DNA from: Chitinophagaceae bacterium
GTDB taxonomy: Bacteria > Bacteroidota > Bacteroidia > Cytophagales > Cytophagaceae
Reading direction: 5' to 3'
Assembly: GCA_028288365.1 (NCBI GenBank)
Contig: JAQBNU010000092.1
Span: 1-64,000 of the forward strand
DNA: 64,000 nucleotides
This document shows positions 6,549-18,063 of the stretch, piece by piece. The position numbers and the translations under genes were made by a program. Within the stretch, counting starts at the first letter, position 1, and every line of letters starts with the position of its first letter. Under the pieces are notes generated by a model that was not told where the DNA came from, searched no databases, and saw only the letters and a program-made list of their open reading frames with translations.

Positions 6549-7268
6549 CTACTGAATGGTTTTATGAATGAAGTCTTTTCGATAACTATCACTCAAAGTG
6601 ATTTTCAACTCGTTGCCTGAAGCAGTGTTTATATTGGTAGTGATTTCATCGTGTACAAAAAATTTCACGGTCTTCAATGCGATGATATCTTTCTTATTGA
6701 CTCTACAAAATTTTTCCGAAGGAAGAAAAGATAAGATCTGTTCAAAGGAAATATTTTTCAGCACCAATTCTTTTCTTTCTTCCAATAGCACCAATTTATC
6801 ACGCTTATCTGTTTCTGCAGTAGTGACCAACAAGATCTTGTCAAAAAACAATAAGGTTTTGCCTTTGTTCGTATTGAGTTGCACAAATTGTTTTTCCGGT
6901 TTTGTGGCAGACAATAGATCTGCGGCTTTCTGCAGTGCTTTTTCTAAGCGTTCTTTTTGCACCGGTTTGCGGATGTAATCTATCGCCTCCAAATCATACG
7001 CTTCTGCGGCATGTTCTTTATATGCCGTCGTAAAAATAACAGGTTTCCCTTGCAGCAATTGCGCCACTTGCAATCCATTCAGGCCAGGCATTTCAATATC
7101 GAGTATGCATAAATCAAAATCTAGTTGCTTTGCTTCCTCCAATAGTTTTACAGGATCATTAAAAGCTTTCACGACTTCTACATGAGGAATTTGTTCGCAC
7201 AACATGCGGAGATACGTCAATCCAGGGATTTCATCGTCCAGCAACAAGCATCTGAGTTTTGTGCTCAA
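6549..7268 (-). CDS. LytTR-family response regulator
   Basis: 239 residues. An N-terminal receiver domain (about 1-120) has the acidic pair D11-D12 and phospho-acceptor D57 in ILDIEMPG, plus a conserved lysine near K103. A LytTR DNA-binding domain occupies about residues 135-239 (with LPSEKFCRVNKKDIIAL). Such regulators bind tandem imperfect repeats upstream of target genes. The start lies 38 bases inside the histidine-kinase gene, so the two are a translationally coupled pair. Targets are not evident here; the secreted protein at the head of the same operon is one candidate for autoregulation. Confidence 0.92.
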   Translation of the reverse strand: MSTKLRCLLLDDEIPGLTYLRMLCEQIPHVEVVKAFNDPVKLLEEAKQLDFDLCILDIEMPGLNGLQVAQLLQGKPVIFTTAYKEHAAEAYDLEAIDYIRKPVQKERLEKALQKAADLLSATKPEKQFVQLNTNKGKTLLFFDKILLVTTAETDKRDKLVLLEERKELVLKNISFEQILSFLPSEKFCRVNKKDIIALKTVKFFVHDEITTNINTASGNELKITLSDSYRKDFIHKTIQ

Positions 7269-8004
7269 GTAAATTAATTTTTAAATGGCTGATGTATGTG
7301 TCTTCTTCGATGAACTGATCAATGGAATAACTTTTCTGGTAAATGATTTCTAATCGTTTTAAAAAACTCTCTTTACCAAAACCACTTCTTTCTTTTTTCA
7401 TCGCCGATTTGGTGCTGATCTTATTGGAAACGGTCAATAAAAATTGATCGTCTTTTAAATCAAACACGATGGAAATGAAAGCATCCGCACTTTGAATGTC
7501 GGCATGTTTAAAAGCATTTTCAATCAAGTCTATGGTAATGAGCGGTGCGATCAAAACCTGTTCATATAAAGGATTGGTTTGATCAATCTTATTTTTGATG
7601 CGCAAGTCAAACAACGGACTTACTTTCAACCGGTTGATTTCAATCAGACTCAACGCAAATTCTATTTCTTCTCTCAGCGATACATATTGTTTGTCGCTTT
7701 CGTATAAAATATAGTCCAGCACATTGGACAGCTTGTCTAGCGCGTAGTACGTTTGATAAGCATGTGACTGAATAGAATTGAGTGTATTCTTAAACAAATG
7801 CGGATTGAGTTTGTAACGGATGGTTTCCAGTTCCAGCGATTGAACTTTTATTTCCAATTCTCTGTAACGCACAGCCGCTTGTTCTCTGTCTTTTTTTGCT
7901 TTGACCAATTGTTTCCATAACCATACACACAGTACAGCGCATGCCATTACCACGGCAAAAATAATTGCCCATGGTGTAATGGATATGAGGAACGGTGTAT
8001 TCAA
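7231..8004 (-). CDS. LytS/YehU-type sensor histidine kinase
   Basis: 257 residues with one N-terminal membrane helix (about 10-30), a short coiled linker (35-62) and a His_kinase (PF06580-type) domain containing LNPHLFKNTLNSI with phospho-acceptor H69, followed by a compact ATPase region. There is almost no periplasmic part, so the kinase either senses within the membrane or takes its signal from a partner. The start codon is TTG, one base after the TAA stop of the upstream gene; the next in-frame Met (residue 20) is inside the membrane helix, so TTG is the likely start. It should phosphorylate the overlapping LytTR regulator. Confidence 0.9.
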   Translation of the reverse strand: MNTPFLISITPWAIIFAVVMACAVLCVWLWKQLVKAKKDREQAAVRYRELEIKVQSLELETIRYKLNPHLFKNTLNSIQSHAYQTYYALDKLSNVLDYILYESDKQYVSLREEIEFALSLIEINRLKVSPLFDLRIKNKIDQTNPLYEQVLIAPLITIDLIENAFKHADIQSADAFISIVFDLKDDQFLLTVSNKISTKSAMKKERSGFGKESFLKRLEIIYQKSYSIDQFIEEDTYISHLKINLLEHKTQMLVAGR

Positions 8005-8005
8005 C

Positions 8006-9580
8006 TTATAGTTTATAAGAAACGATCACAGACACTTTACCCAGTAATCCTTTTCGACCTACCAAAACCAGTTTGTCACGTTGAGGCCAAATGGTATAGT
8101 CACGTACCAACACCAGTTTATCTGGATTGGGTAACATCTCATCTTTAACGATCTGACCATTGCTTCTATCATAAGACAGGTAACGAATCTTGTGAATCGA
8201 AGCATCCAGACCATCGGAGTAGGCATAAATGAACCGCACCTGATCAGGTTGTTGATTATCCATCGCAAAAGAAATAGAATTCAATCCATCAATAGCAGGG
8301 TACACCTGGTTTTTAGCCAGGTATGTAGCCCATTTCAATTCGTCTTTATCCGAATCAAAACTCATCATGATAATGCCTTCTGCCTGCACGTGTCCGTCGA
8401 GTTCTACTTTATGACTTTTATCAAACGTACTGCGACTGATGTGCGGATAACCTTCGGCATACAAACATCTTTTTTCCAACACAAACAAAACCTGTCCGTT
8501 ACTTTCTAATCCAAAATGTGTAAGGTCATAGTCTAACCAGGTCTCTTCTCCTTTGATGAGCTTTGATTCTTTACGCGCTTCCAGGTGTTTACTTCGCAAT
8601 GTAGCATCGTATTCTTTAAACACAGACTTCTCTACCTTTTGTTGAGCAAAATCAAAAACAGAATACATCACACCTGCAAATGTGCCTTTGGAGTTGAGCT
8701 CTGTGTTACCTACCAATAATTTATCTTCTGATAAAAAGCGAACATGGAAATCATCTTTCTGAAAATTACTCGCTGGCAATTCAATGATGTTAAAATCTTT
8801 GGTATCCATATCAAACTTGATAAAGTTTACCTTTCCCCCATTGTTGGCATTGAGAATGAATAATTCTCCTTTGTTATTCAGGTAAATGCCATAATTGACG
8901 TAATCGTTATCGATACCTACTTTCCCTTTCTTCAACAGGTTGCCACTGTTGTCGTACATCCCGACATTGGCGGTCAATGCATGTTCACCATAGTTGAACA
9001 CATAAGAAATAAATTTGGACCCATCCGGGGAAAATGCTAAATGATGAGTGTATTCGAACGCCGTTACAAATTCTGTACTGTTATGTTCTATAATCACATC
9101 TATAAACGTTTCTTTTACTTTTCCTTTATGCGGATTGTCATCCCATTGTCCCACGGGATATTTATCCAATTCTTTCGTCCAGAGTTGTCCTCCTTTATCA
9201 GGATCATAACCATACGCTGCCAGTTTGGTGATACCTTCTGTTCTGAAGTGCACGCCAGAAAGCAATACCAATTCTTTCCCATTGAAGAAAATATCTTTGT
9301 ACTCTTCGTTGTTTTCTACTGATAGAGGAACAGACCAAATCGTTTCAAAGTTTTTCCCATAACGCTCCAATGCAAATTCTGCTTTACCTTTTGCAGAACC
9401 GCTTACTTTGGATAGCGCCACAAAATCTCCGTTGGGTAATACCACTACATCTTTTCTGCCATCGGGTTCCGTATTGGGACTTCCCAATCTAAAGTCTTTA
9501 GAGAATTCTACGGATTGTGCAGAGACAATCATGCCGTTACACAGCGACATTAAAAAAACGAAAAGGTAAAATGCTTTCAT
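8006..9580 (-). CDS. Secreted protein of unknown function, probable beta-propeller
   Basis: 524 residues with a signal peptide (about 1-21, cleavage near VSAQS). The remainder has repeated short blocks such as VVLPNGDFVALS, LAFSPDGSKFISY and VGMYDNSGNLL, the kind of segment seen in beta-propeller blades, but I cannot assign a named family. It is the first gene of an operon with a histidine kinase and LytTR regulator; the gap to the kinase is one base. That context suggests a periplasmic or outer-membrane partner of the sensor, which is inference. No T9SS sorting domain is seen at its C-terminus. Confidence 0.75.
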   Translation of the reverse strand: MKAFYLFVFLMSLCNGMIVSAQSVEFSKDFRLGSPNTEPDGRKDVVVLPNGDFVALSKVSGSAKGKAEFALERYGKNFETIWSVPLSVENNEEYKDIFFNGKELVLLSGVHFRTEGITKLAAYGYDPDKGGQLWTKELDKYPVGQWDDNPHKGKVKETFIDVIIEHNSTEFVTAFEYTHHLAFSPDGSKFISYVFNYGEHALTANVGMYDNSGNLLKKGKVGIDNDYVNYGIYLNNKGELFILNANNGGKVNFIKFDMDTKDFNIIELPASNFQKDDFHVRFLSEDKLLVGNTELNSKGTFAGVMYSVFDFAQQKVEKSVFKEYDATLRSKHLEARKESKLIKGEETWLDYDLTHFGLESNGQVLFVLEKRCLYAEGYPHISRSTFDKSHKVELDGHVQAEGIIMMSFDSDKDELKWATYLAKNQVYPAIDGLNSISFAMDNQQPDQVRFIYAYSDGLDASIHKIRYLSYDRSNGQIVKDEMLPNPDKLVLVRDYTIWPQRDKLVLVGRKGLLGKVSVIVSYKL

Positions 9581-9755: not shown

Positions 9756-11759
9756 CTACTTGCTTTCCACCCATTTCTGCAATACAGGTAATACAGATAA
9801 AGTATATTCCTGCTGAACAGCCATTTTTTCTTCCAGCACTTTTATCGCTGCAAGACCTTTGCTTTTTGCATTGGCTTCGTTTCTCAAAAGATTCAATCCT
9901 ATTCTTCCTGCAGCAGATAAATGGGACGAAGCTTCCATCCATGGCGCTATGCGATTGTCTTTGTGTAAACGGCGTTGTAGCACTTCGTATTGATGCATCC
10001 ACTCGTGAAACATGGCATTGAGCGATGCCTTTGCTTCTCCTTCCGGATTTTTCTTATAGTCTTCTAACAGCAGCACCATGCGCAAATAAGCAAGAGAGGT
10101 AGGTCTGGCCATATCTGCTACTCCATTTAATGGCAATAGGGTATTGTAAATTCCTTTTTGCCTCAAGGCATGATGGCGCTTATAGCCCACGGATGGTTTG
10201 AGGTAAGAGCAAAGTTGCAACAACTCATCTACATCATTTCCTACATGCAGAGAATCCGCTAATACACGGGCATATTCTTCGTGTTGCAACCCTTCTCTCT
10301 CCAGTCGTTCTGAGAATACCAGCAATCGTTTGTAAAAACTCATGGTATCTAATGACATCGAAGAATTCCAACCAATCTCTGCAATGGCTGCCGTATTAGG
10401 CCATAGACGAGAATCGATGGTAAATGAATCGACCAGCTCAGACCACATAGCCGCTTCTTGTCCGATGATGCGGCCTTTGTCCATCGTTTGTTTGCTATTT
10501 CTTTTCACGTAGTATTCTCCTGCTGTGTAGGTCTGATCCAGGTAGTAGCCGTTGGAGCGAACAACCTGGTAACCTCCTGACATGGCTTTTTCCATTTGTA
10601 TTTCTCCTCTCCACGATTGAATAATTGTAGTCGGGGAAGGATGACCATCCAATACTTCATCCCAACCGATCATTTGTTTACCACAAGACAGGAGAATGGC
10701 TTCTACTCTTTGATTGAATTTTGCTTGTAGTTCGTGTTGTGTTTTTAAATTCTTATCGCGCATGAATTGCTGAATGTAGCCGTTGCTTTCCCAATCCTTA
10801 CCAGTGACTTCATCTCCACCGATATGCACGCAGCTGTCTTTAAATACAGTCGCCATTTCACTGAAAAAATCTTTTAGAAACACATATAATTTTTCATTTG
10901 TAGGATCAATGGCCGCATCAAAAATACCAAATCCTTTTTCCGGTTGGTAATTTCTTTTTGCGGAAGCATATTCCGGTAAGCCGGCAAACCAAGCCGTGGT
11001 ATGTCCCGGCAAATCAAATTCAGGAACTACACGTACCCCTCTATCACTGGCGTATTCAATGAAGCGACGCATGTCTGATTGTGTGTAGTATTGTCCATTG
11101 GAACCGCTGATGTGTAGCTCCGGATATTTTTTTGATTCCATTCGGAATCCCTGATCATCGCTCAGGTGCAAATGCAATACGTTCATCTTTGCCATCGCCA
11201 TGGCATCGATGTTTCTATACAAAACATCCAACGGAATAAAATGCCTGCTGACATCAATTAACAATCCTCTCCAATTGTATTGTGGTTTATCTTCAATGAC
11301 TACTCCCGGGAAATAATATCCTTCGCTATCTTTAGTTAGAAGTTGAGTCAGTGTTTCCAGCGCGCGCATAACCCCCATGCTCGTGGAGGCGCATACTTTG
11401 ATGATTTTTTTATTGACATCGATGCGGTATCCTTCGTTTGCCTTTACACAAGGTGTTTGAAGGGAATCAAAAAAAATCCAAATGCCTTTTCGGTGATAGG
11501 TTGAATCTCTGTGCAGATCAATTACCATCATGTTCTGGGACTTCGCCGCCATGCGGGTTCCAGCCCAATAGACATAATGTTTGAGGTTACTATCGATCTT
11601 ATCTGAAATGTGCAGGTACAAACTGCTGTCTACTCTGAATTTTTCTGACAACAAATCCACCCGTTGTGGGTACGGCAGAAGAGCTAAATCTTGAGTATAT
11701 CCAAAGCTTAAAGAAAAAACAAAGAGTAACAAAAAGTAAAAACATGCTTTTTTTATCAT
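9756..11759 (-). CDS. Beta-N-acetylhexosaminidase, GH20 family
   Basis: I place the start at ATG 11759 (667 residues), where MIKKACFYFLLLFVFSLSF begins a normal signal peptide; an upstream in-frame ATG at 11795 would add 12 residues in front of it. A GH20b-like N-terminal domain is followed by the TIM-barrel catalytic domain containing LHLHLSDDQGFRME and the catalytic pair D316-E317 in HIGGDE. GH20 enzymes use substrate-assisted catalysis to release terminal GlcNAc or GalNAc from chitin fragments, glycans or peptidoglycan-derived sugars. About 190 C-terminal residues after the barrel are helical and not assigned. The protein is probably periplasmic or outer-membrane associated. It has a promoter-sized gap from the next gene and is probably a single transcription unit. 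Confidence 0.93.
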   Translation of the reverse strand: MIKKACFYFLLLFVFSLSFGYTQDLALLPYPQRVDLLSEKFRVDSSLYLHISDKIDSNLKHYVYWAGTRMAAKSQNMMVIDLHRDSTYHRKGIWIFFDSLQTPCVKANEGYRIDVNKKIIKVCASTSMGVMRALETLTQLLTKDSEGYYFPGVVIEDKPQYNWRGLLIDVSRHFIPLDVLYRNIDAMAMAKMNVLHLHLSDDQGFRMESKKYPELHISGSNGQYYTQSDMRRFIEYASDRGVRVVPEFDLPGHTTAWFAGLPEYASAKRNYQPEKGFGIFDAAIDPTNEKLYVFLKDFFSEMATVFKDSCVHIGGDEVTGKDWESNGYIQQFMRDKNLKTQHELQAKFNQRVEAILLSCGKQMIGWDEVLDGHPSPTTIIQSWRGEIQMEKAMSGGYQVVRSNGYYLDQTYTAGEYYVKRNSKQTMDKGRIIGQEAAMWSELVDSFTIDSRLWPNTAAIAEIGWNSSMSLDTMSFYKRLLVFSERLEREGLQHEEYARVLADSLHVGNDVDELLQLCSYLKPSVGYKRHHALRQKGIYNTLLPLNGVADMARPTSLAYLRMVLLLEDYKKNPEGEAKASLNAMFHEWMHQYEVLQRRLHKDNRIAPWMEASSHLSAAGRIGLNLLRNEANAKSKGLAAIKVLEEKMAVQQEYTLSVLPVLQKWVESK

Positions 11760-11828
11760 GGGATAATAAATAAAATACCATGCTAAAATAATCAAAGTGG
11801 ACTACACATACAGCATTTAGTTATCTTT

Positions 11829-13148
11829 TTATTGGATGACAATAAGCTCAGTACCCACCTGATTTCCTTTTTGAACATGAAAACTATAAATTCCTTTTTG
11901 TAGAAATGAAAGATCCACTTGTTCTTCTGCTATAGAGGATGAATTGTAAGAATATATTGCCCTGCCTTGCATATCCATAACTGAAACGATACTAGGAATG
12001 CTTGTGTTGTTTTCGTAAGATAAAGCAAATCTGCCTGATGAAGGATTAGGCTTAATTGTTAATTCCATTTGACTAGCAGATTTCATTGCCGTAACATCTG
12101 TTGATATCGTTTGAGATATAGAATCCATTCCACATTCATTTGACAATTTTAATGTCACGACGTAAGAAGCGCCTGAGCCATAGTTGTGCGTAGGACTTTG
12201 ATCATGATCTATTGCACTTCCGTCTCCAAAATTCCAGCTGTATGAGGATGTTCCATAAGACGAGGATGTATTGGTAAAGAATACATCGTTACCACTGTTT
12301 GACGTATTAAATGATGCTATAGGTGTATTCACCGTTACAGTTACTTGTCCTGTACTTTCACAACCGTGTTGATCTGTTACAACCACACTATATACAGTAG
12401 TGGTATCAGGAGCAACCGTCACAGAAGCTGTATTGCCAGCCGCATGATCCCAGCTATAACTATTGCCTCCTGAAGCATCTAAATTTGCTGACTCTTCTTT
12501 ACAAATCACCACAGGATCAGAAACTCTTATAACAGGATCTGTGGAATGCCCTACCATTATAGAATAAGTCGCTTCACAGTTTAATTCATCTTCTATTGTA
12601 ACAGAATATAATCCGGCAGGAATACTAAATATGGAATCACTAGTGCTTTCATTAGACCAAAGGTAACTATATGAACCTGTTCCTCCCTCTGCATGAACCG
12701 CCGCCGATCCATCATTTCCAGGCACACAGGTTTCATTTATAGATGAAAAAGAAACTGTGATCGCCAGTGGTTCAGTGATGTTAAATGTTGCATTCGCTTG
12801 TACTCCATTGGCATCTGTTACAATTACAGTATAATTACCTTTCACTAAACCAACCGCTGTAGCTTCTGTTCCGCCAGATGGAGACCATGAATAAGTATAA
12901 GGAGCTGTCCCCCCCTGTATATTTGTAATGCTTGCCGATCCATCTCTACCACTTGCGCAGCTTACATTTGAAGACGAAGAAGTCAATGTAAGCGCAACCT
13001 GACTACCTTTTATTATTGTAACACGAGTCTTCGCTATGACATCAGTATTTATAAACGTTTTAGCCGATGTGATATGTCCGGTGATGAATAAACATGCTAT
13101 TGCTACAAAATAAAATAACCTAATCATCCTTTGCTGTATCTGTTCCAT
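11829..13148 (-). CDS. Surface protein with SprB-type repeats, PKD domain and T9SS sorting domain
   Basis: 439 residues with a hydrophobic signal segment (about 8-30); the Met at residue 8 is an alternative start. Two SprB-type repeats follow (about 50-128 and 128-200, each with a conserved GxDGSA core and a YSW or YLW strand), then an Ig-like domain (205-275), a PKD domain with WNFGDG (278-350) and a C-terminal type A T9SS sorting domain (361-439) that contains IKPNPSSGRF and ends in VGTELIVIQ. It has no enzymatic domain and should be exported by T9SS and displayed as an adhesin-like protein. The T9SS parts elsewhere in the window (PorQ, PorG-like, PorE-like) fit this. Confidence 0.9.
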   Translation of the reverse strand: MEQIQQRMIRLFYFVAIACLFITGHITSAKTFINTDVIAKTRVTIIKGSQVALTLTSSSSNVSCASGRDGSASITNIQGGTAPYTYSWSPSGGTEATAVGLVKGNYTVIVTDANGVQANATFNITEPLAITVSFSSINETCVPGNDGSAAVHAEGGTGSYSYLWSNESTSDSIFSIPAGLYSVTIEDELNCEATYSIMVGHSTDPVIRVSDPVVICKEESANLDASGGNSYSWDHAAGNTASVTVAPDTTTVYSVVVTDQHGCESTGQVTVTVNTPIASFNTSNSGNDVFFTNTSSSYGTSSYSWNFGDGSAIDHDQSPTHNYGSGASYVVTLKLSNECGMDSISQTISTDVTAMKSASQMELTIKPNPSSGRFALSYENNTSIPSIVSVMDMQGRAIYSYNSSSIAEEQVDLSFLQKGIYSFHVQKGNQVGTELIVIQ

Positions 13149-13389: not shown

Positions 13390-15285
13390 TTAACTATGCA
13401 AAATCAAATACTTCAATTTATCACCATCCTTTAACTTCTCGTACTCTTTCTTGTGCACAGTAACCAATAATTTTTGTACGAATTTCCAGCAAGTGGCATT
13501 GCGGATATCCAGTTCTCTTGATATGTCCGTGATGGAAACGTTTTCTCCGTAACGATTGATCATGACTGTGATGTACAAGGCCTTTCGGATGTCAAACTTA
13601 CATTTATGAAAGGCTGTATAAGCCGTAATGGATTCGTCGTAACGGCACTTGGTACATCTTCGGGCAAAAGCAGTAGCACCTTTACCATATTTAATGTTGC
13701 CACATTTTTTGCATACATAACCCTGTTCCCACTTCACTTCTTCCATGAAAAGATCGCAGGAAGCTTCATCTGGGTACACCAAACTGAATTCTTCAAAATT
13801 AATTTGCTTCAACGAAATACGTGCTTCCTTTTCCTGAATCACATTCTTCTTCAGGTTCCAGTTGTCACGATCGAGGATCGCATTCATTTCATTGATTTCT
13901 TCGGCCTGTGCCTTCAATTGTTCATTGGCTTCTTTCAACTCTGCACTTTTCTCTTCGATGATGCGTGTACGCTCTGCTACTTTTTGCTCCAGTTCTCTGT
14001 TGACTTTATCGCTGAGTATCCTATTTTCATTCAATTGATTGATGACTTGTTCCTGCGCTTTTTCATTGGTGTATTTTAAAAAGCGGATACGATCGCCCAA
14101 AGCAAAAGACAAAATAACAATGTCCATGATCATGCTGATGTTGCGGATGTACACAATAGTAATCAGCATTCCAGGCGAGCCCTGCAGGAAGAAGTTGAAC
14201 AAGGTAGCGTTCTTCATCGTATTCAACACCAATCCTAATAAGATGACTCCGTTGCCTAACAAGAAAAAACGTGCCGGCTTATAACCTTTCTTGTACACCA
14301 CCGCGGCAATGAATAAGGTATAAGCGAAAATGATGATGAATAGCAAGTCATACAAAAATGGATACTGTACATAAGGGAATACCAAACTGACACTGCAAAA
14401 CAAAAAGAGCAACGCATACATGATCGTTCTGGAAGAAGGCATGTTCTTGCGGATGTCAAGGAAGCTTTGAAAATAGATCAGGTAAAAGGTGAGCATGATC
14501 ACTTTGGAACTATAGCTTCCCCATGCTGTGATCAAATGATTTTGTGACCAGACAAACTGAAACCCCAGGCCATCATTGATGGAAGAGTCGAATGCCCAGG
14601 CGATGGCGTAAAAGAAATAATAGATGTATACTTTTTCACGGATGGTAAAAAAGAGAAACAAATTATAAAAGGCCATGATAAACACAATACCATAGTACAT
14701 GCCCAGCAATAAATATTCTTTGAATGCATACGAAGCAAAGATTTTATTTTGTCGGATCTTAAATAAAAAACTTCCGATCGTACCCGGACGGATTTTCAAA
14801 TAATAATAATCCGATGCATCTTCCAGAGAAGCGAAGGGGATGTCGAATACGAAATTTTTATGCTGGTATTCCCGCTGACTGAAATCGTATTGCACACCCG
14901 TTTTACTTTCGATATAGTGATCAGGATTCCCAAAATCGGGTGCATAGAAAATGACTTCTGAAAATCTTGAATCTAAAATTTCCAGGATCCAGTTGCTTTG
15001 CAATCCGGCTTTGTTGACAATCTTAAAACGGATCCAATAATTACTGGAGGCATGGTGGCTGAATTGCTCTTTAGCACCACCTTCTTGAAAGGAAAACTGG
15101 TTCGGATGTGCGAGAAGATCGTTTAAGGTAACTTTCGTTGTGGGATCTTCGAAAATCTCTATCGTATTACTGAGCGTTTCGTATTCGTCTTGTCCTTTTT
15201 CGAGAATGATTGTTTTGCCATAACTAAACACTACAGCGCAAAAAAAGCACAAAACAACACCGATCCCTTTCATCGAATATTTCAT
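13390..15285 (-). CDS. 7TMR-DISM membrane sensor with C-terminal IS1595/ISXO2-type zinc ribbon and HTH
   Basis: 631 residues. After a signal peptide (1-23) comes a 7TMR-DISMED2-like extracytoplasmic domain (about 45-180) that in this family binds carbohydrate-like ligands, then seven membrane helices (about 190-400) and a coiled coil (about 405-480). The output region (490-631) is unlike the usual kinase or cyclase: it has YPDEASC, then zinc-ribbon pairs C525-C528 and C544-C547, then TAYTAFHKCKFDIRKA and a helix-turn-helix (about 580-612). That is the N-terminal zinc ribbon of IS1595/ISXO2 transposases without the DDE catalytic domain. It probably couples ligand binding to DNA binding at the membrane. 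The architecture call is strong; the mechanism is inference. Confidence 0.88.
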   Translation of the reverse strand: MKYSMKGIGVVLCFFCAVVFSYGKTIILEKGQDEYETLSNTIEIFEDPTTKVTLNDLLAHPNQFSFQEGGAKEQFSHHASSNYWIRFKIVNKAGLQSNWILEILDSRFSEVIFYAPDFGNPDHYIESKTGVQYDFSQREYQHKNFVFDIPFASLEDASDYYYLKIRPGTIGSFLFKIRQNKIFASYAFKEYLLLGMYYGIVFIMAFYNLFLFFTIREKVYIYYFFYAIAWAFDSSINDGLGFQFVWSQNHLITAWGSYSSKVIMLTFYLIYFQSFLDIRKNMPSSRTIMYALLFLFCSVSLVFPYVQYPFLYDLLFIIIFAYTLFIAAVVYKKGYKPARFFLLGNGVILLGLVLNTMKNATLFNFFLQGSPGMLITIVYIRNISMIMDIVILSFALGDRIRFLKYTNEKAQEQVINQLNENRILSDKVNRELEQKVAERTRIIEEKSAELKEANEQLKAQAEEINEMNAILDRDNWNLKKNVIQEKEARISLKQINFEEFSLVYPDEASCDLFMEEVKWEQGYVCKKCGNIKYGKGATAFARRCTKCRYDESITAYTAFHKCKFDIRKALYITVMINRYGENVSITDISRELDIRNATCWKFVQKLLVTVHKKEYEKLKDGDKLKYLILHS

Positions 15286-15610
15286 AGGTTATAAAAACAT
15301 CTACTAAATATACTTAAATATTATGTAGCGCCTAACATCTATGGTCTCTGCGAGGATTGTAAGTTTTAAGATTCCTGTATTTTTAAAGCAACCTTCTGTT
15401 TTAGAGTTGGTTCTTTTTAAAATAAAAACAAAAAAACACCGGCTGGGTAACCGTATAAACTTCTGGTAACATCGACAGAATAAAAATTATACACATTATT
15501 CCAATTGCTGTTCTTTATCACTTATTTTTAATACTAACTTTCTACCCATGCGTTGTTAAACGATCCTGTATGGTATATTATTAAAAGCTGTACTATAAAC
15601 TAATTGCCCC
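15286..15610. other. Divergent intergenic region between the 7TM sensor and the TPR membrane protein
   Basis: 325 bases with no coding frame I can support. It must contain the promoters of both divergent genes, but no clear TTG / TANNTTTG pair was found by eye. Confidence 0.6.
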
Positions 15611-17672: not shown

Positions 17673-17713
17673 ATTATAATACTAACCGATTGCTTATCAG
17701 TTAGTATTATAAT
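17673..17713. terminator. Long AT-rich inverted repeat between convergent genes
   Basis: Perfect 14-bp arms (ATTATAATACTAAC and its complement) with a 13-base loop lie between the convergent TPR gene and the four-helix gene, and the right arm covers the TAA stop of the latter. It has few G/C pairs and no long T tract, so termination is plausible but not certain. Confidence 0.5.
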
Positions 17714-18063
17714 GCCTTTTCAAGATTCCTTATCATCACATAAAGTATCTTGGAAATTTCTTCAAACCCTTTCTCCAATTCATTTTTAAGTTCTAAGGGG
17801 ATTTCGTTTTCAGAATATAAGATATCAACGATTACAGCGCATTCAAAGGCTGATCCTCTAGCTATTACAAAGAAATTTCTTCTGTCTTTCTTTGTGAATT
17901 TTGCGCTCCCTTCAGCTATGTTTAACACGATGCTCAGACTCGCTCTGCCCAATTGATTTTTAGCGTAGGCTGGGATTTTATAATTTTCTTTCAGAAGGTT
18001 ATAGACTACTTTGTTTAATAGAAAAGCCTTTTTATACACTTCCAGTTTTTGATAAGAAAACAT
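17707..18063 (-). CDS. Four-helix-bundle protein (S23 / 23S rRNA IVS-type family)
   Basis: 118 residues, all predicted helix, with the family signature around NIAEGSAKFTKKDRRNFF and a following SAFEC segment. This family was first found as proteins encoded in intervening sequences of 23S rRNA; most members, like this one, lie outside rRNA genes and have no settled function, though nucleic-acid or ribosome binding is suspected. It is downstream of ssrA on the same strand, after a terminator-like hairpin, so it is probably transcribed separately. Such genes are often scattered and horizontally mobile within the phylum. Confidence 0.85.
   Translation of the reverse strand: MFSYQKLEVYKKAFLLNKVVYNLLKENYKIPAYAKNQLGRASLSIVLNIAEGSAKFTKKDRRNFFVIARGSAFECAVIVDILYSENEIPLELKNELEKGFEEISKILYVMIRNLEKAL

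Follow-up and report, generated by a model that had tools for sequence, protein, structure and literature searches.

Among the described regulators of polysaccharide utilization loci (PULs), the SusR-like proteins offer the closest parallel to the receptor presented here. Bacteroides SusR and Flavobacterium DusR are inner-membrane one-component activators with a periplasmic sensor and a C-terminal DNA-binding part (PMC3878776, PMC10316084), a layout that the receptor shares. Their genes adjoin susC-susD, as do the receptor genes in 36 of 70 loci of our family, the locus described here being an exception. In predicted SusR operators, direct repeats lie 67 or 77 bp from centre to centre, which has been taken to mean monomers bound on one face of the DNA (PMC3878776). 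A long-spaced direct-repeat operator, with six or seven helical turns between the repeats predicted for SusR, is a further likeness—two receptor clades have one, and none was found for the present copy. The SusR-like protein of a GH66 dextran locus differs in having TPR and DUF6377 domains and no zinc ribbon, and Pfam did not find DUF6377 in the protein studied here. SusR was considered as a hidden relative and rejected: against the dextran-locus protein the family profile reached 3.6 bits, and a profile comparison gave 0.8% probability.

HTCS proteins are likewise PUL-linked, single-polypeptide glycan sensors, and three relatives of the receptor share their Reg_prop/Y_Y_Y sensor; unlike HTCS, the 7TM and propeller proteins that we scanned lack kinase, receiver, and AraC domains. 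7TMR-DISM receptors such as RetS and RgsP, a class reportedly named in a 2003 paper, have the same DISMED2 and 7TM parts; however, the remaining 7TMR-DISM genes of the source genome, where readable to the end, finish as histidine kinases. IS1595/ISXO2 transposases possess a homologous zinc ribbon and helix-turn-helix (HTH), but the receptors lack their DDE domain. The ChiS-family DNA-binding domain, a helix-sheet-helix variant of the HTH, is also C-terminal on proteobacterial sensory proteins, 7TMR-DISM proteins among them (PMC8092284); in contrast, our module combines a zinc ribbon with a trihelical HTH of transposase origin (no profile comparison was made).

Here we describe a receptor gene in a 64,000-nt stretch of DNA, hereafter the window (positions 1 to 64,000 of contig JAQBNU010000092.1, assembly GCA_028288365.1, Chitinophagaceae bacterium). 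We hold with good confidence that its product is a membrane-embedded one-component regulator of PULs, SusR-like in its working and unrelated to SusR. Most likely, receptors of the family detect sugar polymers beyond the inner membrane and act directly to turn on the adjacent genes for consuming them. We also lean, less firmly, toward a broader reading, in which these proteins join SusR, HTCS, and ECF/anti-sigma systems as a fourth class of PUL regulator specific to Bacteroidota: a DNA-reading, GPCR-like 7TM receptor, born of a single capture of a transposase domain that then came to serve at least three kinds of sensor, with phased direct-repeat operators particular to each clade. In the searchable open literature, which leaves out most subscription journals, we found no description of the family, of the fusion, or of 7TMR-DISM proteins with SusC. 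If correct, this reading adds a class of glycan-responsive regulator with predicted operators ready for testing, as well as a clear bacterial example of membrane receptors whose output is a converted transposase DNA-binding domain, with DDE-bearing relatives still alive to compare. The links between receptors and enzymes (GH20, GH30, alginate lyase, and PF10091 enzymes, for example) allow ligand guesses for the poorly understood 7TMR-DISM sensors.

Architecture of the Receptor

The receptor gene and its parts are placed in the window as follows.

13390..15285, (-) strand: coding sequence of the 631-aa 7TM receptor with IS1595-type zinc ribbon and HTH, ATG start
14785..15168, (-) strand: 7TMR-DISMED2 periplasmic sensor domain, aa 40-167 (Pfam E 1e-21; RetS-like fold)
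14089..14718, (-) strand: 7TMR-DISM_7TM, seven membrane helices, aa 190-399 (Pfam E 3e-34; AlphaFold2 helices)
13810..14088, (-) strand: continuous cytoplasmic helix and coiled coil following TM7, aa 400-492 (AlphaFold2; low-confidence hinge at 471-492)
13606..13806, (-) strand: two helices and zinc ribbon, aa 494-560, with C525, C528, C544, and C547 (Pfam, cysteine conservation, AlphaFold2)
13456..13590, (-) strand: trihelical HTH, aa 566-610, helix 3 region LDIRNATCWKFVQKLL (AlphaFold2 pLDDT about 95; IS1595 HTH homology)

The initial annotation had read 7TMR-DISMED2, seven membrane helices, a coiled coil, and a C-terminal module from the sequence alone, and Pfam and AlphaFold2 confirm this order of parts. 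The sensor half is recognized with ease—7TMR-DISM_7TM scores 119 bits against a curated cut-off of 29, and 7TMR-DISMED2 scores 77.6 bits against 22. The DISMED2 model matches the RetS periplasmic domain (3jyb; VIA-align Z 14.1, 136 residues, 2.6 A); a phmmer search of the full protein against the PDB gave no match. In the full-length AlphaFold2 model, a beta-sandwich and seven helices are followed by a single helix, residues 380 to 492, that runs into the C-terminal module. Within the coiled-coil part, the motif NRELE.KV.ERT is kept throughout the receptor family. The sequence marks that the initial annotation named (YPDEASC, C525/C528, C544/C547, and TAYTAFHKCKF) are all in the ORF translation; its signal peptide is backed by hydrophobicity and the model alone, and the membrane topology of the receptor is inferred.

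A Transposase-Type Zinc Ribbon and HTH

Zn_ribbon_IS1595 matches residues 505-549 of the window protein at 26.9 bits, above the Pfam cut-off of 25.4; since this match is marginal on its own, the claim was tested at the level of the family. We collected 107 full-length fusions, 89 of them non-redundant at 95% identity, and the four cysteines C525, C528, C544, and C547 are invariant in 89/89. The family module profile picks up IS1595-type transposases (up to 1.5e-40), ribbon and HTH jointly. Pfam found no DDE_Tnp_IS1595 in any of the five paralogues scanned, the window protein included; in contrast, the real transposase of the same genome carries it (E 4e-39).

AlphaFold2 gives the C-terminal module (pLDDT 95.6) a pair of helices, a zinc ribbon, and a trihelical HTH. 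A fold search with this model returned only weak matches to common HTHs, so the homology of the module rests on sequence, and nothing about novelty of fold follows from the lack of a close match in the PDB. No NCBIfam family exceeds its cut-offs for the fusion. The module had been proposed to be the DNA-binding half of an IS1595/ISXO2 transposase without the DDE nuclease, checkable by HMM search against ribbon and DDE and by structure prediction; the Pfam match, family profile, and invariant cysteines bear this out, and both checks agree. The further proposal, that a membrane sensor here has a domesticated IS1595 module for its output, draws support from sequence, fold, conservation, and phylogeny; DNA binding is inferred, as are zinc binding and dimerization.

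Family Size and Distribution

The source genome has five genes of this architecture, the other four being 29-39% identical to the window protein, and related genomes hold up to about a dozen each. An architecture search across relatives, suggested by the initial annotation, uncovered a large family. The module occurs in 82 of the 241 genomes sampled from the order (E below 1e-25); phylum-wide it was found in only 19/395 genomes at 1e-20, some of these hits being transposases. The family is common in Cytophagales and also occurs in Sphingobacteriaceae; the named matches include Algoriphagus, Chryseolinea, Ohtaekwangia, Mucilaginibacter, and Pedobacter, and many of the genomes are MAGs.

Among the paralogues, C43 faces a GH16 gene, C130 adjoins a gene for a T9SS beta-helix protein, and C19 (L026:2066-3889, G000:C19) has a TonB/SusC-type gene downstream; no carbohydrate gene was seen in the neighbourhood of C167. 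C19 has a single in-frame TAA immediately ahead of the HTH, which makes it either a pseudogene or a MAG assembly error.

Genomic Context

Neighbours were counted over the 70 loci that have a downstream gene on the contig. These loci came from searches for relatives of the window protein, and they sample the phylogeny unevenly. The next gene downstream is susC-like and on the same strand in the 36 loci noted above, at gaps of 135-680 bp, and only five susC-like genes occupy other neighbour positions; susD comes next after susC in most susC-linked loci, which are weighted toward a few related clades. Other neighbours include PF10091, GH16, GH3, GH5, GH20, GH30, GH81, and GH97 genes, along with a chondroitinase-B-like lyase, a sulfatase, and T9SS-secreted proteins. 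It is from this company of susC/susD and carbohydrate enzymes that we derive the function of the receptor family.

The initial annotation was right about the fusion but recognized neither its glycan setting nor how widespread the family is. It had offered two working models: direct ligand-to-DNA signalling is favoured for the relatives by their susC and carbohydrate-enzyme neighbours and by operators that sort with recognition-helix types, without any experiment behind it; tethering of DNA at the membrane for its own sake found no support.

Predicted Operators

Two operators were predicted, both without binding data. The motif AATGTTTTTTaagcGtaAAA is common to the intergenic regions between receptor and susC (EM score 263 versus 79-88 in dinucleotide shuffles), and a second copy lies 65-67 bp away in 24/34 of them; among secondary sites above threshold, 22/26 keep this distance. 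Operator 1, found in one receptor clade, is accordingly a direct repeat TGTTTTT...CG..AAA at 65-67 bp spacing. Across 13 whole genomes, the paired pattern matched 16 times and the reversed pattern 3 times; the 16 comprise 11 before receptor-linked susC, two before an unlinked PF10091 gene (in two genomes, each with one receptor), and three that we judged spurious. True pairs number one or two in each of 11 genomes, and the 13 genomes contain 346 SusD genes, so that the motif cannot be an element of susC promoters at large. In order-wide scans with loose patterns, matches beyond the receptor-adjacent sites stayed at background level. Where two genes stand between receptor and susC (G456), the site stays with susC.

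In receptors with operator 1, the position ahead of NT or ST in the recognition helix is taken by a hydrophobic or an uncharged small residue, whereas susC-linked receptors without it mostly have K, R, or Q there; this correlation is confounded with ancestry. A receptor of Chryseolinea serpens (L139) is one of the R[VLI]NT type. A diverged variant, CAACCGCAAAA / CAAGCGCAAAA at a spacing of about 66 bp, was seen at L104 and L108. By eye, we also noted CG-centred palindromes of LacI type, like GCAAWCGWTTGC, near operators in receptor-susC intergenic regions (L081, L091, and L104, for example); perhaps these belong to a second regulator of the same loci.

Operator 2 belongs to loci whose receptors have RQSTCW in the recognition helix, as in Mucilaginibacter OK098 (L096). 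It consists of direct repeats A[AG]CGTATC 86-88 bp apart (AAGCGTATC), a spacing equal to that of operator 1 plus two helical turns. The exact pair is absent in three members of this clade (L107, L112, and L309), and none was found outside RQSTCW receptor loci in the 1.87 Mb of sequence examined. Paralogue C19 falls in the clade when read past its in-frame TAA; an intact-looking 88-bp pair lies downstream of it despite that codon.

As a held-out test, we searched 400 genomes of one family for the operator-2 pair, blind to receptors. The scan gave 23 sites versus 3 for the reversed control. An RQSTCW receptor lies within 1.5 kb of 15 of the 23, and two more sit beside the start of a divergent 7TM receptor, so that at least 17/23 are beside receptors. 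Each of the sites has the start of an ORF 102-272 bp downstream; those ORFs that were tested encode GH30, GH5, alginate lyase, or SusC. At L136, found before the blind scan, the gene downstream of operator 2 is a PL14 lyase. Of the evidence that the operator is chosen by the module, we rate the blind-scan result highest.

Proposed Mechanism and Alternatives

In the mechanism that we propose, a glycan fragment would bind the DISMED2/7TM part, and the coiled coil would make dimers and pass the signal change onward, along a helix that the structural model predicts to be unbroken from TM7 into the coiled coil. A pair or higher assembly of receptors, held at the membrane, would then bind two helically phased repeats and may activate the adjacent operon. 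These steps build on what we observe—the architecture, its conservation, the linkage, and paired operators that sort with the type of HTH. DNA binding, the ligand, and glycan-dependent activation of the linked operon are inferred and have no experimental data behind them; further regulators could also act on these operons.

The ribbon-HTH might instead contact another protein, be it RNA polymerase or a separate DNA-bound regulator, with the repeats bound by that factor. Zinc ribbons often mediate protein contacts, and some susC intergenic regions also hold LacI-like palindromes; yet it is the HTH lineage, not the locus alone, that predicts the operator, with AAGCGTATC pairs found only with RQSTCW receptors, blind scan included. 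Loci with and without operator 1 also differ in the recognition-helix residues of their receptors, and no other transcription-factor family was recognized among the recurrent neighbours, which leaves protein contact unlikely. Slightly less likely again is regulated proteolysis, in which a signal-induced cut frees a soluble ribbon-HTH fragment to regulate transcription. The low-confidence hinge at 471-492, between coiled coil and ribbon, would suit such a cut, but no protease was recognized among the recurrent neighbours, and long-spaced predicted repeats are the pattern of intact membrane regulators, SusR and HTCS (PMC3878776).

Two further alternatives start from the transposon itself. A domesticated module could bind IS1595 ends and so repress or tether transposons; its nearest kin are indeed the IS1595 transposases, and multi-copy elements occur among relatives (10 in G217). 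However, receptor genes adjoin glycan-use operons and the predicted operators lie in those promoters, and we disfavour this reading as very improbable. That the gene is merely a decayed chimera, left by an IS insertion into a receptor gene and without regulatory role, could draw on the stop codon of C19 just before its HTH; it is refuted at family level by the full-length fusions, the invariant cysteines, and the occurrence of the module across a third of the order's sampled genomes, and we give it practically no weight.

Origin of the Module

In a midpoint-rooted tree of 70 modules, one clade (100/99) unites 46 fusions to 7TM receptors, three to propeller sensors, and one to a single helix, and the closest transposases lie around it. 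L143, among the closest transposases that the module profile picks up, has a confirmed DDE domain. With DDE-bearing IS1595 transposases adjoining a single clade, the sequences suggest that the module was probably captured once from a transposase—likely but unproven, because the root is a midpoint. The propeller fusions (L285, L286, and L287) carry the same module on Reg_prop and Y_Y_Y domains, an HTCS-type sensor, and one of them, L285, has susC and susD directly downstream. Since they nest inside the receptor clade, the module has moved between sensors. The single-helix fusion, L147, joins it to one membrane segment and a coiled coil.

Genome G217 has about ten copies of an IS1595-type transposase (L170, L179, L182, L184, L186, and L187). 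In its DNA-binding part, this transposase is almost as similar to the receptor module as one receptor is to another; it is a possible living relative of the donor. There are also soluble, stand-alone ribbon-HTH proteins of about 145-170 aa (L003:1468-1971, which is G000:C113, and L154, L155, L156, and L157). They are conserved in same-family relatives, occupy their own branch of the tree, and are possibly a second, independent domestication; the L003 gene adjoins one for a transporter-like membrane protein.

The Window Locus

Around the receptor, the window holds the following features.

9756..11795, (-) strand: GH20 beta-N-acetylhexosaminidase, downstream neighbour of the receptor and its likely target (Pfam E 3e-90; synteny)
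11829..13148, (-) strand: SprB-repeat/PKD/T9SS-sorted secreted protein between receptor and GH20 (Pfam)
15408..15458, (-) strand: upstream non-coding block, TACGGTTACYC ... TTTTGTTTTTN6AAAAG, conserved in four orthologues (alignment)

Direct-repeat searches in the window copy and its orthologues gave only T-rich pairs at chance level, and no operator is assigned to the window receptor. The conserved upstream block is a possible, unproven autoregulatory site. In orthologues L063, L064, and L065, whose receptors are about 80% identical to the window protein, the link between receptor and GH20 is retained (4/4 loci, window included); the SprB-repeat gene was not seen at its position in these three. 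The hexosaminidase gene is the likely target of the window receptor and an N-acetylhexosamine-containing glycan its likely cue, although these are the weakest steps of our reading.

Further downstream of GH20, the window (6552-9580) and L064 (6684-9405) keep a linked set made up of a 524-aa protein without Pfam family and, after it, a LytS-type kinase and a response regulator. On the upstream side of the receptor, both loci have a small protein with the look of a four-helix bundle (window 17710-18063; L064:894-1217).
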